A stretch of 64,000 nt of DNA. Origin: Arthrobacter gandavensis. GTDB lineage: Bacteria > Actinomycetota > Actinomycetes > Actinomycetales > Micrococcaceae. The translations under genes and the position numbers were made by a program. This document shows, piece after piece, positions 9,733-31,228 of this stretch; positions within the stretch are counted from its first letter, which is position 1, and each line of letters begins with the position of its first letter. The stretch lies in the NCBI RefSeq assembly GCF_015355785.1, contig NZ_JADKYW010000006.1, positions 454,936 to 518,935 on the forward strand. The letters are read 5' to 3'. Under the pieces are notes generated by a model, which did not search any database, was not told the origin of the DNA, and saw only the letters and a list, made by a program, of their open reading frames with translations.

Positions 9733-9759
9733 CGGTCGATTTGCTGCGGGGGAGAGCTG

Positions 9760-10062
9760 TTAGCCCTCGCAGTCCACGCAGTACTTTTCGCCGTTCTTCT
9801 CCAGCGCAATCTGGGAACGGTGGCGGACCAGGAAGCAGGACATGCAGGTGAACTCGTCAGCCTGTGCCGGAACAACCTTGATCAGCAGTTCTTCACCGGA
9901 AAGGTCCGCACCCGGAAGGTCGAACCCGTCGATGGCGTCGGATTCCTCGACGTCGATAACCGCCGTCATCGCTCCGCCGCGCTGCTGGGCCTTCAGCCCC
10001 TCCAAAGAGTCCGTGGGCTGGTCTTCTTCCTTGACGCGCGGTGCATCGTAATCGGTAGCCAT
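9760..10062 (-). CDS. DUF4193 family protein
   Basis: A 100-residue acidic protein of the actinobacterial DUF4193 family. The C-terminal half carries two Cys pairs (CMSC and CVDC) about 20 residues apart, likely a zinc ribbon, embedded in FTCMSCFLVRHRSQI and GEKYCVDCEG. Function is unknown; the family is widely conserved in actinomycetes, where I recall it near dut. The ATG has AGGAGATA upstream, and a plausible promoter (TTGGTG-17-TATATG) lies at 10108-10136. It is the last gene before the gene-free terminus region. Confidence 0.9.
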   Translation of the reverse strand: MATDYDAPRVKEEDQPTDSLEGLKAQQRGGAMTAVIDVEESDAIDGFDLPGADLSGEELLIKVVPAQADEFTCMSCFLVRHRSQIALEKNGEKYCVDCEG

Positions 10063-10107
10063 GTGTAGTGCTTATCTCCTGAATTTGTGGGGGGTTCGAG
10101 CGTAGAT

Positions 10108-10136
10108 CATATAGGCGAAGCCGCATAACACACCAA
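10108..10136 (-). promoter_or_regulatory. Promoter of the DUF4193 gene
   Basis: On the minus strand TTGGTG (10136-10131) and TATATG (10113-10108) are separated by 17 bp, giving a leader of about 40 nt with an AGGAGATA ribosome site. Confidence 0.55.
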
Positions 10137-10336
10137 ACGGCTTCTGAATAGGTCCTTCTGTGGCTAAACCGCGGAGCACTGCAGATCCCTGACGGCTGCC
10201 CGGCGCTGGCCCGGAAACTTCCCGTACTGCAGTCTGCCGGCCGTAGGGGCGGCCGGATACCCGGACGTTCCGCGCATTCTCAGCCTTCCTGCAGGTCAAC
10301 GCCCGGTACAACGCCACGCCCTGCGCAAATGTTCCC

Positions 10337-10364
10337 TGAGCGGGAAGGGCGCATTATGTAAAGC
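10337..10364 (+). other. Degenerate dif-like sequence
   Basis: Aligned without gaps to dif at 10630, 17 of 28 positions agree: 7 of 11 in the XerC box (TGAGCGGGAAG), 2 of 6 in the centre and 8 of 11 in the XerD box (TTATGTAAAGC). It may be a decayed or chance copy. Confidence 0.3.
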
Positions 10365-10397
10365 TGTACCGCAAGGGCGGACAGCTCTCGGGGGAGA

Positions 10398-10408
10398 TTA
10401 TGTCAACC
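10398..10408 (+). other. XerD-like half-site
   Basis: TTATGTCAACC matches the dif XerD box at 10 of 11 positions, but no XerC-like box lies at the required distance upstream. Confidence 0.35.
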
Positions 10409-10629
10409 CAAAACCGGCCTGGCGTGCGCCCGGAACATGAGCAAGAACACGTGAGGTACCTTTCCCAAGAATGGCTCCCGCGCTGCACCCCCGCGGACCA
10501 GCAGCTTTGCGCACCGGCCGAACTGTGCACGGAAAGCGGGCCTCGGCCGGGCTTCGCAGAGTGGATATGAGTGGCGGCGGAAGCTTGGTACAAAACGGCA
10601 AAGGGGGGACCTCCCCGGGATGTTGTCCC

Positions 10630-10657
10630 TGAGCCGATAATCTACATTATGTCAACT
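10630..10657 (+). other. Chromosome dimer resolution site dif
   Basis: A 28-bp site with XerC box TGAGCCGATAA, 6-bp centre TCTACA and XerD box TTATGTCAACT. It has the 11-6-11 architecture of bacterial dif, with the hallmark ATAA and TTATGT inner ends (compare E. coli GCATAA-6-TTATGTTAAAT). It lies in non-coding DNA, and the housekeeping genes to its right point toward it. XerC and XerD recombine paired dif sites to resolve chromosome dimers under FtsK control. Only one full site is present. Confidence 0.9.
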
Positions 10658-10773
10658 AGCGGTTCGAGAACGGTCCCCCCGGTGAAGCTTCGGGGTATAT
10701 TGCGGAGAGCCACACGGTGCCGGAGACCAGCGGCGCGGACGGCCACCATGAGCAGCCAAACCCCGGGGGAATC

Positions 10774-11361
10774 ATGAATCAGGAACGCACGCTGGACTGG
10801 AACGCCGGGAGCTGGACGAACCGACCCGCAGGTACCCGTCAGGTGGGCGCGAACCTGCAGGTTACGGCGTCCGAGGGCAGCGACGCCTGGCGTGAAACCG
10901 CGTACGGCTTCACGTTTGCGTCGGAGAACGCCCTGCTCGCGCCGTTTCCTCCGGATTCAGCCATGGAGGTCGAGTTCACTGCCCAGGCCTTCGAGCAGTT
11001 CGACCAGGCTGGAATCTTCCTTCGCGCGGCAACGGATTCATGGGTCAAGGCCGGCATCGAGTTCGCGGACGGACGCCTGCAGGCAGGTGCAGTCGTCACT
11101 GCCCCCAAATCGGACTGGTCTTCCTCGCCGCACCACGAGTGGCTGGGCAAACGGACCGTGGTGCGTGCCAGCTGGAAAGGTGATGCCCTCACCATCCGCG
11201 CCGGCCTGGCAGGCAACCCGTTGGAGCTGCTGCGCGTGGCGCCCTTCTCCCCCGCCGGCCCCGTCAGCGCGGGACCGTATGTGGCTTCACCCTCCTCGGC
11301 CCGCTTCGAAGCGGTGTTCCACTCCTGGCGGGTCACTGCCGCGGACGCCTCGCTGCACTGA
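10774..11361 (+). CDS. DUF1349 domain protein (concanavalin-like fold)
   Basis: A 195-residue soluble protein matching DUF1349, a lectin/concanavalin-like jelly roll sometimes labelled 'regulation of enolase protein 1'. Recognisable segments are FDQAGIFLRAATDSWVKAGIEF and the C-terminal GPYVASPSSARFEAVFHSW. The true function of the family is unclear; carbohydrate binding is the usual guess. The ATG at 10774 was chosen over an upstream in-frame start at 10717 because GGGGGAAT precedes it. It is the first gene to the right of dif. Confidence 0.8.
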   Translation: MNQERTLDWNAGSWTNRPAGTRQVGANLQVTASEGSDAWRETAYGFTFASENALLAPFPPDSAMEVEFTAQAFEQFDQAGIFLRAATDSWVKAGIEFADGRLQAGAVVTAPKSDWSSSPHHEWLGKRTVVRASWKGDALTIRAGLAGNPLELLRVAPFSPAGPVSAGPYVASPSSARFEAVFHSWRVTAADASLH

Positions 11362-23819: not shown

Positions 23820-24845
23820 ATGGGCGACCATAGTCACGGCAGTCCGAACACCTCGGGCACCGTTGCTACGGCTGGCCAGGGCGAAGAAGGAGAATTCCAG
23901 AATCCTGGACTTCCCCCGCACCGCCCTCGCCTGGCCGACACGGATCCCCGGGCTGAGAAGCGGTCCGAGAAGCAGGTGGCGATCCTCTTCGCCATCTCCG
24001 TTCTCGGTACGCTCCTGTTTTTCTACGGGTATTTCTTTATCCGCCTGGATGAGAGCATCGGGACGCTCCGCATCCAGAACCTGTTCCTGGGCCTCGGCAC
24101 CGCCTTCGCGATGCTCGGCATCGGCGTCGGTATCGTCCACTGGGCCAAAACGCTCATGCCGGACCACGAGGTCATCGAGGAACGCCACGAAATCCGTCCG
24201 GAAGAAGACCGCGTTGTCGCCGAGAAGATGATCGGCGACATCATCGAGGAAACCGGAATCAAGCGCCGCCCGCTGATCCGCAACACCCTGCTGGGTGCCA
24301 TGGCACTGGCTCCGCTTCCCGCGATCGTCCTGTTCCGCGACCTGGGCCCGCTGCCCGGAGACGTCCTGCGCCACACCATGTGGGACAACGGCGTCCGCCT
24401 GACTAGGGACCCGAGCGGCACCCCGATCAAGGCCTCGGACGTCACGCTGGGCTCCGCGTTCCACGTGATTCCCGAAGGCTTGAACGACGCCGAGCACAAG
24501 CTCGAGGAAAAGGCCAAGGCTGTTGTCCTGCTCATGCGCCTGGATCCCTCCGAGCTGAACCCCTCCCCCGGACGCGAAGACTGGTCCGTGGACGGCATCG
24601 TTGCCTACTCCAAGATCTGCACCCACGTTGGCTGCCCGGTGGCACTGTACGAACAGCACACGCACCACCTGCTGTGCCCGTGCCACCAGTCCACCTTCGA
24701 CCTGACCCAGGAATGCGCTGTCATCTTTGGTCCGGCCGTCCGTCCACTGCCGCAGCTGCCGATTGCTGTTGACGACGAGGGCTACCTCATTGCCACCAGC
24801 GACTTCACTGAACCCGTTGGACCGAGCTACTGGGAGCGTGGCTGA
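23820..24845 (+). CDS. qcrA: Rieske iron-sulfur subunit of the bcc complex
   Basis: A 341-residue Rieske protein with the actinobacterial three-helix N-terminal membrane domain (helices at about 60-80, 95-115 and 165-180) and a C-terminal Rieske domain with the 2Fe-2S ligands CTHVGC and CPCHQS. It accepts electrons from menaquinol bound to QcrB and passes them to QcrC. The ATG at 23820 has GAGGGGGATC upstream; an earlier in-frame start at 23796 lacks one. It is separated from qcrB by two nucleotides, implying coupled translation. Confidence 0.95.
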   Translation: MGDHSHGSPNTSGTVATAGQGEEGEFQNPGLPPHRPRLADTDPRAEKRSEKQVAILFAISVLGTLLFFYGYFFIRLDESIGTLRIQNLFLGLGTAFAMLGIGVGIVHWAKTLMPDHEVIEERHEIRPEEDRVVAEKMIGDIIEETGIKRRPLIRNTLLGAMALAPLPAIVLFRDLGPLPGDVLRHTMWDNGVRLTRDPSGTPIKASDVTLGSAFHVIPEGLNDAEHKLEEKAKAVVLLMRLDPSELNPSPGREDWSVDGIVAYSKICTHVGCPVALYEQHTHHLLCPCHQSTFDLTQECAVIFGPAVRPLPQLPIAVDDEGYLIATSDFTEPVGPSYWERG

Positions 24846-24847
24846 TC

Positions 24848-26542
24848 ATGAGTGCTACCTCTGTATCCGGCACCTACGAGCCGAAGACCAAGCTCGGGCG
24901 CATCACCAACTTCGTCGACTCCCGCGTGAGCGGCTCGATGATGGTCAAAGAGTTCGGCCGCAAGGTCTTTCCTGACCACTGGTCCTTCATGTTTGGTGAA
25001 GTGGCGCTCTACAGCTTCGTCATCCTGCTCCTCTCCGGAACGTTCCTGACCTTCTTCTTTGATCCGTCCATGGCGGAGACCCACTACGAAGGCAGCTACG
25101 TTCCGCTCAAGGGCGTGGAAATGTCCGTCGCCTACGCTTCGTCGCTGGATATCTCCTTCGACGTCCGCGGCGGTCTGTTCATGCGCCAGGTCCACCACTG
25201 GTCGGCCCTGCTGTTCGTTGCCTCTGTTTCGGTGCACATGCTGCGCGTGTTCTTTACCGGCGCGTTCCGCAAGCCCCGCGAACTGAACTGGGTTGTGGGC
25301 GGCGTGCTGCTCATCCTGGCCCTGGCTGCCGGCTTCACCGGCTACTCGCTCCCCGATGATCTGCTCTCCGGCAACGGCCTGCGCATCATCGACGGCGTCA
25401 TCAAGGCTGTCCCGGTTGTTGGAACCTACATCAGCTTCTTCCTCTTCGGCGGCGAGTTCCCCGGCACCGCCGTGATTGGACGCCTGTACGTCCTGCACAT
25501 CCTGCTGGTACCTGCCCTGATCCTGCTGATGATCGGCATCCACCTGTTCATGGTCGTCATCCACAAGCACACCCAGTGGCGCGGCCCGGGACGGACCAAC
25601 AACAACGTTGTCGGTTTCCCGGTTGGTCCGGTCTACGCAGCGAAGGCCGGCGGGTTCTTCTTCATCGTCTTCGGTATCATCGCGTTCATCTCCGCCGTGT
25701 TCACCATCAACCCGATCTGGAACTACGGCCCGTACGACCCCTCCCCCGTGTCCGCAGGCACCCAGCCTGACTGGTACATCGGCTGGGTTGACGGTGCCCT
25801 GCGCCTGATGCCGGGCTGGCTGTTCGGCTTCCCCTTCGAATGGAACATTCCGTTCCCCTGGGGAGTGAACACGCTCTCCCTCAACGTCCTGCTGCCGGCC
25901 CTGGTGCCCGCAGGCATCGTCTTCACGCTGCTGTTCACCTGGCCGTGGATCGAAGCCTGGGTCACCAAGGACAAGCGGATCCACAACCTTCTGGACCGTC
26001 CGCGCAACGCTCCGACCCGCACCGGCATCGGTGTGGCCGGCGTCATCTTCTACTGTGTCATGTGGGCTGCTGCCAGCTCCGACCTCATCGCCACGCACTT
26101 CCTGGTGTCGCTGAACGATGTGACGTACTGGCTCCGCTTCCTGTTCTTCTTCGGACCGGTTATCGGATTCATCGTGGCCCGCCGCATCGCCCTGGCCCTC
26201 CAGCGCAAGGACCGCGAGATCGTTCTCCATGGCGTCGAGAGCGGACGCATCGTCCGTCTCCCGCACGGTGAGTACATCGAGGTCCACGAACCGCTGGACG
26301 AGTTCAAGCGCTACAAGCTGGTTGCGTTCGACTCCCCCGAGGTCACCCCGGCCCAGCCGGATGCCAAGGGCAGGATCAGCCGCAGCGAGAAGCGCCGCGG
26401 AGCGCTTTCCCGGTTCTTCTTCGAAGACCGCGTGGCTCCGGTGACTCCTGCCGAGCTTGAAGCCGCGCACCACCACGAGCCGCATGCCGAGGTTGAGGCA
26501 AGCGAAGTGGATGAGGCTCCGGCTTCAATCGAGAAGCACTAG
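24848..26542 (+). CDS. qcrB: Cytochrome b subunit of the bcc complex
   Basis: A 564-residue protein with eight to nine transmembrane helices. Heme-b ligation is indicated by the His in RQVHHWSALLFVASVSVHMLR and the later HILLVPALILLMIGIHLFM. The Qo-site region GTAVIGRLYVLHI and the PDWYIGWVDGALR motif (PEWY-like, here PDWY) are present. The ~110-residue charged cytoplasmic C-terminal tail, rich in His and Glu, is longer than in mitochondrial cytochrome b but usual for actinobacteria. A strong terminator follows. Confidence 0.95.
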   Translation: MSATSVSGTYEPKTKLGRITNFVDSRVSGSMMVKEFGRKVFPDHWSFMFGEVALYSFVILLLSGTFLTFFFDPSMAETHYEGSYVPLKGVEMSVAYASSLDISFDVRGGLFMRQVHHWSALLFVASVSVHMLRVFFTGAFRKPRELNWVVGGVLLILALAAGFTGYSLPDDLLSGNGLRIIDGVIKAVPVVGTYISFFLFGGEFPGTAVIGRLYVLHILLVPALILLMIGIHLFMVVIHKHTQWRGPGRTNNNVVGFPVGPVYAAKAGGFFFIVFGIIAFISAVFTINPIWNYGPYDPSPVSAGTQPDWYIGWVDGALRLMPGWLFGFPFEWNIPFPWGVNTLSLNVLLPALVPAGIVFTLLFTWPWIEAWVTKDKRIHNLLDRPRNAPTRTGIGVAGVIFYCVMWAAASSDLIATHFLVSLNDVTYWLRFLFFFGPVIGFIVARRIALALQRKDREIVLHGVESGRIVRLPHGEYIEVHEPLDEFKRYKLVAFDSPEVTPAQPDAKGRISRSEKRRGALSRFFFEDRVAPVTPAELEAAHHHEPHAEVEASEVDEAPASIEKH

Positions 26543-28640: not shown

Positions 28641-30364
28641 TTGACGCTCTCCTTGCGGTCAGCCGAACCATAGACCTGGCCGGGTGCGGACTCGTTGGTG
28701 ACGGTCTGCTGCAGTTCCGGGTGGTGCAGGTCCAGGGCCGGACGCTCCGAACGGATTCGGGGCAGCGACGTGAAGTTGTGGCGCGGCGGCGGGCAGGACG
28801 TAGCCCACTCCAGCGAGGCACCAAAGCCCCACGGGTCGTCAACTTCAACCTTCTTGCCGTGGCGCCAGGTGATGTACACGTTCCAGAAGAACGGAATCAG
28901 GGAGGCACCCAGGACGAAGGAGGCGATCGTGGAGAACTGGTTCATTGCGGTGAAGTTGTCCTCGACCAGGTAGTCCGCGTAGCGGCGCGGCATGCCGATG
29001 ACGCCCAGCCAGTGCTGGATCATGAACGTGCCGTGGAAGCCCAGGAACAGCAGCCAGAAGTGGATCTTGCCGAGGCGTTCGTTGAGCATCTTGCCGGTCC
29101 ACTTGGGCCACCAGAAGTAGAATCCTGCGAACATCGCGAACACCACTGTGCCGAAGACCACGTAGTGGAAGTGGGCAACCACGAAGTAGGTGTCCGAGAC
29201 GTGGAAGTCCAGCGGCGGAGCCGAGAGGATGATGCCGGTCAGGCCACCGAAGAGGAAGGTGATCAGGAAGCCGATGCTCCAGAGCATCGGAGTCTCAAAG
29301 GTGATCGATCCGCGCCACATGGTGCCGATCCAGTTGAAGAACTTCACGCCGGTCGGTACCGCGATAAGCATGGTCATGAAAGCGAAGAACGGCAGCATGA
29401 CGGCGCCGGTCACGTACATGTGGTGGGCCCACACGGTCACGGACAGGGCAGCAATGGCGATCGTTGCGTAGACCAGGCCCTTGTAGCCAAAGATCGGCTT
29501 GCGGCTGAAGACCGGGAAGATCTCCGACACGATGCCGAAGAACGGCAGGGCGATAATGTACACCTCGGGGTGGCCGAAGAACCAGAAGAGGTGCTGCCAC
29601 AGGACTGCGCCGCCGTTTTCCGGATCGAAGATGTGCGCCCCGAATCGGCGGTCCGCACCAAGTGCGAACAGCGCAGCAGCCAGCGGCGGGAAGGCCATCA
29701 GGATCAGGATGGCGGTCACCAGCGTGTTCCAGGTGAAGATCGGCATCCGCCACATGGTCATGCCGGGGGCGCGCATGCAGATGATCGTGGTGATGAAGTT
29801 GACCGCACCGAGGATCGTGCCGAATCCGGAGAGGGCAAGGCCGAAGACCCAGAGGTCACCGCCAACGCCCGGCGAGAATGTCGTATTCGACAATGGCGCA
29901 TAGGCGAACCAGCCAAAGGAAGCGGCGCCCTGCGGGGTGATGAACCCGGAGACCGCGATGGTGCTGCCAAAGAGGAAGAACCAGAAAGCCAGTGCGTTCA
30001 GCCGGGGGAAGGCGACGTCGGGTGCGCCGATCTGCAGCGGCATCATCACGTTCGCGAAGCCGGCGAAGAGCGGGGTGGCGAACATCAGCAGCATGACGGT
30101 GCCGTGCATGGTGAACAGCTGGTTGTACTGTTCCTTGGTCTGCAGGATCTGCATACCGGGTTCAAACAGCTCGGCACGGATGACCAGGGCCATCACGCCG
30201 CCGAGGCAGAAGAAAATGAATGACGCGATCAGGTACATGTACCCGATGGTCTTGTGGTCAGTGGAGGTGATCCAGTTGACGACGATGCGTCCCTTGGAGA
30301 CCGGCACGACGCGCGGGGCGACCCGGGTGCCTGATTCCTCCGAAGTGTATTCCAGGGTAGTCAT
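28637..30364 (-). CDS. ctaD: Cytochrome c oxidase subunit I
   Basis: A 575-residue, twelve-helix catalytic subunit. The binuclear-centre motif [13 protein letters not shown] (with the His-Tyr pair), the two CuB histidines in [10 protein letters not shown], and the heme a/a3 histidine region [15 protein letters not shown] are all present, as is the proton-channel segment near the N-terminus. It reduces oxygen and pumps protons. The start has AGGAGGAAAGCT upstream. A 532-residue open frame on the opposite strand is a codon-bias shadow of this gene. Confidence 0.97.
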
Positions 30365-30382
30365 AGCTTTCCTCCTACCTCC

Positions 30383-31228
30383 TTACTTCGTCGGATTCAG
30401 GTTGGTGTTGCGGTCGTACTCTGCACCCAGCTGACCATCGTCCAGCGTGGCCAGGTAGGCGTTGTACTCGGCCTCGGAGACGACCTTCACGTTGAAGAGC
30501 ATCTCGGAGTGGTACTCGCCGCAGAGTTCGGCACACTTGCCTTCGAAGGTGCCTTCCTGCTGCGGGGTGAGGGTGATGTAGTTGGTGCGGCCGGGAATCA
30601 TGTCCCGCTTCTGCAGGAACGCGGGCACCCAGAAGGAGTGGATGACGTCGCGGGAGTTCAGCTGCAGTTCAACGGACTTGTTGACCGGCAGGTACAGGGT
30701 TGGGAACTCGTCCTGGGTCTTTTCCTCGCCGTCCAGGTTCACCTGGACGCCGCTGTAGTACTTGTCTTCCTTGACGTAGTTGAAGTCCCAGGCCCACTGC
30801 TTGCCGCGGACGTCCACAATGACGTCCGGATCGTCCACGCGGGCGTCGAGCGCCCGGATGTCGCGGTCGGTGAAGAAGAAGAGCACCAGGACCATGAACA
30901 GCGGGATGGCCGTGTAGAAGATTTCCAGCGGCAGGTTGTAGCTGAGCTGGCGGGGGTAGCCGGTCTCGTTCTTACGGCGACGGTAGGCGATGATGCACCA
31001 CAGGATCAGTCCCCAGGTGAGGATACCTACGGCCAGCGCAGCAATCCATGAATTGACCCAGAGGTCCATGATGCGGCCGGTGTGGTTGGTCGTGTCCCGT
31101 TCCGTGGGCAGCCAGCCCTTTTGGACATCTGATGAACAACCCGATAAAAACAACGCGCCGGCCGACGTTACGGCTGAGATCTTTAAGATCCTGGCGCGTC
31201 GGCTGCTGGTTCGGTCCTGCGAACTCAC
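30383..31228 (-). CDS. ctaC: Cytochrome c oxidase subunit II (lipoprotein)
   Basis: A 281-residue subunit carrying the CuA centre: CAELCGEYHSEM provides two Cys, His and Met ligands, with the upstream His in VIHSFWVPAF. An N-terminal lipobox (LSGC, Cys31) and two transmembrane helices anchor it. It receives electrons from QcrC. The GTG start has AGGAAGGG 6 nt upstream. It heads the ctaCDF operon, with an 18-nt gap to ctaD. The 184 bp upstream toward erpA should hold the promoter; I see no clear hexamers. Confidence 0.96.
   Translation of the reverse strand: MSSQDRTSSRRARILKISAVTSAGALFLSGCSSDVQKGWLPTERDTTNHTGRIMDLWVNSWIAALAVGILTWGLILWCIIAYRRRKNETGYPRQLSYNLPLEIFYTAIPLFMVLVLFFFTDRDIRALDARVDDPDVIVDVRGKQWAWDFNYVKEDKYYSGVQVNLDGEEKTQDEFPTLYLPVNKSVELQLNSRDVIHSFWVPAFLQKRDMIPGRTNYITLTPQQEGTFEGKCAELCGEYHSEMLFNVKVVSEAEYNAYLATLDDGQLGAEYDRNTNLNPTK

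Follow-up and report, generated by a model that had tools for sequence, protein, structure and literature searches.

According to the available text of Kono et al. 2011 (PMC3025954), actinobacterial dif sites, exemplified by CACGCCGATAATGCACATTATGTCAAGT of Frankia alni, are single-copy terminus sites of 11-6-11 layout with the core GCCGATAATNNACATTATGTCAA; the words 'Arthrobacter' and 'Micrococc' do not occur in its main text. As described in the accessible parts of PMC5357621 and PMC13342612, the KOPS of E. coli is GGGNAGGG, and dimer resolution there is FtsK-directed. In B. subtilis, SMC complexes are reportedly unloaded near ter by XerD bound at its sites (XDS; Karaboja et al. 2021, as cited in PMC10945525, PMC8357415 and PMC11898615), and cer-type plasmid Xer sites carry accessory sequences of about 180 bp that are served by ArgR and PepA (PMC5357621, in part).

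The locus studied here lies in a stretch of 64,000 nucleotides from Arthrobacter gandavensis (the window) and shares layout, core, copy number and terminus position with actinobacterial dif, yet differs in carrying extra XerD boxes, of which no mention was found in the available text of PMC3025954. As with the KOPS of E. coli, a short G-rich polar word is oriented to dif and switches polarity there; the word itself is different, GGGGGAG, and a copy of it forms a fused composite with a solitary XerD box. As with the XDS of B. subtilis, XerD sites are present near the terminus besides dif, whereas here they are candidate sites by sequence that cluster tightly on one side of dif, at most about 0.5 kb away and in dif orientation, one of them KOPS-fused. 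As at cer-type sites, extra and here predicted protein-binding DNA adjoins the core site, with the difference that it consists of copies of the recombinase's own half-site. No mention of XerD half-site arrays beside dif, or of GGGGGAG as KOPS, was found in the available text of PMC3025954, PMC13342612, PMC5993296, PMC11898615, PMC10945525, PMC8357415, PMC5357621 and PMC13277299, a mostly open literature that does not establish absence from print. The dif site itself is already known and a textbook element, and the array beside it is new as a variant. The whole is best explained, with a probability of roughly 0.6, as a dif site accompanied by a selected XerD platform coupled to FtsK.

The original prediction described a dif site of 11-6-11 layout in a gene-free gap of 711 bp; the letters, TGAGCCGATAA-TCTACA-TTATGTCAACT on the forward strand, and the gap, 10063-10773 with dif inside it, are exactly as claimed. 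These 28 bp combine the 11-6-11 layout with the conserved inner ends of the XerC and XerD boxes and are the sole match in the window at up to three mismatches (mean of 100 shuffles 0.00). The uniqueness foreseen for the site extends to the genome of 3,372,897 bp in nine contigs, with a single match at the same tolerance and none in a backward control. In the genus of the window (g1), dif was found in 29/29 genomes, 22 by the whole 28-mer at up to three mismatches and seven (2 + 5) by the core only. The exact core CCGATAATNNACATTATGTCAA occurs at at least 120 loci in named genomes; among the matches listed, 118 of 120 bear actinobacterial labels, the other two being an unverified Bacillus and a Proteobacteria MAG. 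The genome encodes one FtsK gamma domain and, at E up to 0.001, two genes of the Phage_integrase (tyrosine recombinase) family and no third. One recombinase exceeds the curated XerD cut-off (342 versus 329.6 bits), and the other has XerC as its best match, with 318.3 bits, under the cut-off of 335.15. The gene content expected for dif, XerC, XerD and FtsK gamma, is therefore in place, and because only an XerD-like and a XerC-like recombinase are present, there is no extra integrase to account for the boxes described below. The spread of the core, the single copy, the Xer and FtsK genes, the position in sister genomes and the switch in KOPS-like polarity all bear out the proposed identity. Positions 10630-10657 are almost certainly the chromosomal dif site, of the standard actinobacterial type, at which membership of the dif family predicts XerC/XerD binding and recombination. 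Single-strand folding around dif is no more stable than that of shuffles (z -0.18), and an inverted repeat flanking dif, GGGGGGACC/GGTCCCCCC, is better taken as two converging KOPS.

Table 1. Features of the dif locus, in window coordinates.
Feature	Position	Strand	Remarks
DUF4193 protein gene	9760-10062	-	flanks gap
DUF1349 protein gene	10774-11361	+	flanks gap
Next GGGGGAG leftward, aimed at dif	9748-9754	+	dif-895
Distal solitary XerD-like box TTATGTAAAGC	10354-10364	+	44 bp upstream of proximal box
Proximal composite	10390-10408	+	KOPS-like GGGGGAG 10390-10396, one spacer base, XerD-like box TTATGTCAACC 10398-10408
Third element AGGTACCT	10454-10461		56 bp after proximal box start
KOPS-like GGGGGAC, aimed at dif from XerC side	10604-10610	+	
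dif site	10630-10657	+	XerC box 10630-10640, central region 10641-10646, XerD box 10647-10657
KOPS-like GGGGGAC, aimed at dif from XerD side	10673-10679	-	
Nearest GGGGGAG right of dif, aimed at dif	11247-11253	-	contig 466182

Within 350 kb on each side of dif, GGGGGAG is the most polar 7-mer, with 152 copies directed at dif against 2 in the opposite sense. Across 818 kb of contig (341 bases N), which also served for the skew analyses, 176 of 178 copies point toward dif and 2 away, and the best switch interval, 465325-466182 in contig coordinates (857 bp), encloses dif at 465565-465592. The last copy before dif on the left, which bounds this interval, is the one in the proximal composite. Words of the same composition have a strand bias of at most 3-fold, and the polarity of 176 to 2 is unexplained by gene direction, since ORFs are only mildly co-oriented (60-70%). 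GGGGGAG is also the top or joint-top polar 7-mer in G009, of the same genus (109 toward, 2 away), in G110, of another genus (107/2), and in G164, of a third (56/1), and in each of them the switch interval spans dif. In four genomes of three genera the word is thus over-represented, polar and switching at dif. GGGGGAG behaves as the KOPS of these bacteria and would be read as such by FtsK, with GGGGGAC (95 toward, 17 away) as a weaker form. Among other KOPS-like words, counted within 350 kb in the genome of the window, GGGAAGGG (22/13), GGGCAGGG (50/45) and GAGAAGGG (10/12) have little polarity, while GGGGAGGG (20/4) and GGGTAGGG (5/1) are polar but rare, and given the latter two an E. coli-type motif may partly work here. 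TCCCCC stands at dif start +44 in 20 of the 29 genus loci. A CGGGGGA at 10764-10770 points away from dif and lies right before the start codon of the DUF1349 gene, where it is probably a ribosome-binding site.

The window had further been taken to span the replication terminus, with a GC-skew extremum near 10.6 kb. The latter did not hold: the cumulative maximum over the 818 kb of contig lies 111 kb to the left of dif. We give this result little weight, because GC skew is weak here, ranging from -0.038 to 0.048 across 20-kb windows; a skew extremum at dif is moreover a common correlate and no requirement for dif. The AT-skew change-point over the same contig lies 20 kb to the right of dif, and GC, AT, purine and keto skew alike proved uninformative or displaced as terminus markers. 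Placement was instead taken from sister genomes, as the genome of the window consists of nine unordered contigs: in 8/8 sister genomes whose main contig begins with dnaA (within its first 1.5 kb; a second contig exists in two of them), dif lies at 47-56% of the main contig. Together with the converging FtsK polarity, and against the GC skew, this position supports the terminus claim in the sense of a zone of converging FtsK polarity, not of a fork-fusion point. The proposal that genes of the right arm run toward dif survives as a bias and not as a general rule, with 38-40% of ORF bases on the forward strand on the right and 61-69% on the left in a greedy longest-ORF count. Elsewhere in the window, between 24000 and 31000, GC skew changes from -0.115 (24001-26000) to +0.108 (29001-31000) and AT skew from -0.151 to +0.187.

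Two solitary XerD-like half-sites sit in the gap that holds dif, outside the coordinates of the original prediction, which had missed them. In 29/29 genomes of the genus, two to four such half-sites lie 235-477 bp from dif on its XerC side; they share the orientation of dif, and no XerC half can be recognised at them. This count takes in relaxed forms such as TTATGTCAG, and a stricter pattern gives one to four in the first 22 loci, every one of which has upstream boxes on the dif strand. In nine genus genomes, RTTATGTCAASY occurs 39 times (control 2), with nine copies in dif, 21 on the same strand less than 500 bp away on the XerC side, and nine far off on the other strand, one such distant copy per genome in 9/9. 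When all 8-mers of the 520 bp upstream are counted without a preset pattern, TTATGTCA and TATGTCAA come out on top, each in 29/29 genus loci. The proximal box is 235-320 bp from dif, and no helical phasing of this spacing is seen in the 29 genus loci. Selection on the array is likely because most flanking bases have diverged while the boxes were kept; the genus genomes, having a common ancestry, are not independent samples, and the diverged flanks are an internal control only. The array is probably a selected XerD-binding element, XerD binding to the solitary boxes being predicted from the identity of the boxes. In the window, the stretch of the distal box at 10333-10362 is 70% identical in register to dif at 10626-10655 over 30 nt, with TCCCTGAGC common to both on the XerC side, perhaps as a trace of a dif duplication.

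The nearest box is usually fused to KOPS in the genus, with a composite consensus of CGGGGGAC-R-TTATGTCAACY. GGGGGA abuts the proximal box exactly in 24 of 29 loci, with one mismatch in four and in neither form in one, as compared with one exact case and three with one mismatch among the 59 distal boxes of g1; the chance of an exact abutting GGGGGA is 0.0013 per site. The exact pattern GGGGGA-N(0-2)-TTATGTCAA was found in 20 of 295 family genomes, one copy each and all g1; these make up 20 of the 24 g1 genomes searched, and all 20 composites are within about 310 bp of dif. Alignment of the proximal boxes gives a footprint from -9 to +12 at 0.8-2.0 bits, reading CGGGGGAC, R, TTATGTCAAC, Y, in which the TTATGT core was fixed by the search pattern and the KOPS part was free. 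Beyond the footprint, out to -40 and +49, most positions have 0.0-0.7 bits; +41, +44 and +48 are exceptions. As read from this footprint, the XerC arm of dif is absent from the proximal box and its inner end is replaced by KOPS. At the second box the half-site is conserved and little besides.

A third element follows at +54 to +57 from the proximal box in 29/29 genus loci, as ACCWGGT in 13 (plus one GCCAGGT), ACCYGT in seven and an AGGWCCT-like form in eight, including that of the window; this word set was picked after viewing the sequences and has a background of 0.013 per 11-bp window. Among distal boxes followed by a gap of more than 60 bp, 9/21 have the element at the same distance. Box and third element look like a nucleoprotein unit, because their spacing is nearly fixed while that between box and dif ranges over 235-320 bp. 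Loci of g8, g23, g10, g24 and g3 have no GACCWGGTC in the 520 bp upstream of dif. An inverted XerC half-site was rejected as an account of the element, XerC-like words occurring there at 0.0099 per bp versus 0.0097 elsewhere.

Across the family, relaxed boxes within 700 bp of dif were surveyed at 150 loci of 29 genera (29 loci of g1 and 121 of the 28 others). The dif listing comprised 149 genomes, 129 of them in the survey and five without a match; outside it were 14 genomes with matches (all of g21, g22 and g31 and one of g16) and one g8 genome, G129, with three dif-like matches. Boxes number 110 upstream on the dif strand, seven downstream on the same strand, four upstream on the opposite strand and none downstream on it, compared with 2, 0, 0 and 0 in a backward control; about 200 letter permutations of TTATGTCAA gave at most three upstream matches versus 84. 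Among the 120 listed named loci with the exact core, 15 have upstream boxes, 22 in all and eight of these from two g1 genomes, and the other three classes of strand and side hold one, two and no boxes. By genus, an upstream box is present at 29/29 loci of g1, 6/6 of g8, 7/7 of g23, 3/7 of g10 and 1/1 of g9, and at a single locus each of g3 (of 8), g4 (of 7), g14 (of 3), g15 (of 6) and g25 (of 7); it is absent within 700 bp from 19 of the 29 genera surveyed. The upstream boxes of the six g8 and seven g23 loci are without an exact abutting KOPS. A link to FtsK cannot be a general role of the boxes, because those of g8 and g23 lack the exact KOPS and the exact fusion is confined to one genus. In 4/6 genomes of g7 the solitary XerD box is downstream of dif, between +186 and +206.

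Based on these observations, we propose that the locus operates as follows. XerC and XerD would bind the two halves of dif, and FtsK, steered to the site by converging GGGGGAG-type KOPS, would activate XerD, whereby chromosome dimers are resolved. The solitary boxes should bind XerD without recombining, because they have no recognisable XerC half-site. With the proximal box directly downstream of KOPS, in place of the XerC arm, a loading FtsK ring would meet bound XerD at once, and the third element, for some partner, would follow at nearly fixed spacing. The array would serve as an XerD platform on which FtsK and XerD are coupled shortly before dif, either by keeping XerD in readiness or by slowing the FtsK motor and setting its position. 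That its main role is coupled to FtsK rather than to SMC unloading falls just short of an even bet. The more specific picture of a dedicated, non-recombining XerD platform in Arthrobacter-type bacteria, with a KOPS-fused half-site and a third site for another partner, is tentative and somewhat more doubtful again.

The main rival, that XerD bound at the solitary boxes frees SMC arriving at the terminus, is unlikely, yet has weight. It has the precedent of B. subtilis (as reported in the accessible text of PMC10945525, PMC8357415 and PMC11898615), there are several boxes per locus, those of nine genus genomes lie beside dif save for one distant copy each, and the KOPS-less boxes of g8 and g23 are better accounted for by SMC unloading than by FtsK coupling. 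It leaves the KOPS fusion in g1 unexplained, however, and fits the g1 composite worse; the genus boxes counted are moreover all less than 0.5 kb from dif, and 19 of the 29 genera have no box within 700 bp upstream. The two roles, FtsK coupling and SMC unloading, could both hold.

In other bacteria dif is an insertion site for elements that use Xer, and the boxes might be relics of such integrated elements, or of duplicated dif sites, that have lost their XerC arms. The 70% match of the distal-box stretch to dif, including TCCCTGAGC, would agree with this, but the XerC-side match does not recur when the other 21 of the first 22 genus loci are inspected by eye, TTATGTCA and TATGTCAA persist upstream in 29/29 loci despite diverged flanks, the third element keeps its spacing, and no tyrosine recombinase beyond the two Xer-like ones is encoded in the genome at E up to 0.001. 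Relic status is therefore improbable: conserved boxes in diverged flanks argue for a present function, though their origin could be as relics. A role as promoter elements is suggested by the reverse complement of the box, AGTTGACATAA, which holds the -35 hexamer TTGACA, and by the lone distant copy in this genome, which is placed between ftsQ and ftsZ and oriented as an ftsZ promoter would be. The absence of TANNNT at a spacing of 16-20 bp from all 88 genus boxes, and the lack of conservation at the expected -10 positions, make it very improbable. Least credible is that the proximal box marks the start of a small gene, with GGGGGAG as a plausible ribosome-binding site followed by ATG TCA ACC. 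A 56-codon frame is open at 10400-10570 in the window, and an EQKHVRY-like stretch appears in frame in 8/22 loci including that of the window; this stretch coincides with the third DNA element, however, past it the eight frames part ways and stop at no common point (44 to 158 residues), and other loci encode different peptides, with box-ATG frames of 3 to 596 overall. The small ORF was rejected for these reasons, and the FtsK-coupled XerD platform is retained as the preferred reading.

If this reading is right, the locus contains a built-in coupling element, and XerD would play a second, structural part at the terminus, either staging FtsK or releasing SMC. In the array, XerD-like half-sites that lack XerC partners occur naturally and are conserved, and a KOPS-like word abuts one of them. 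It opens to direct testing the encounter between FtsK and XerD, possible roles of XerD other than recombination at the terminus outside Bacillus, and the one-sidedness of the arrangement. Around dif, GGGGGAG is polar in all four family genomes tested, and in the genome of the window it is a far better terminus marker than GC skew.

The XerD-like 12-mer GTTATGTCAAGT has its only distant copy in the genome outside the window, at contig positions 81067-81078 on the minus strand, between ftsQ and ftsZ, with ACTTGACATAAC as its forward reading. Copies of this word are present in many other genera as well, and the copy between ftsQ and ftsZ is probably the -35 element of an ftsZ promoter.
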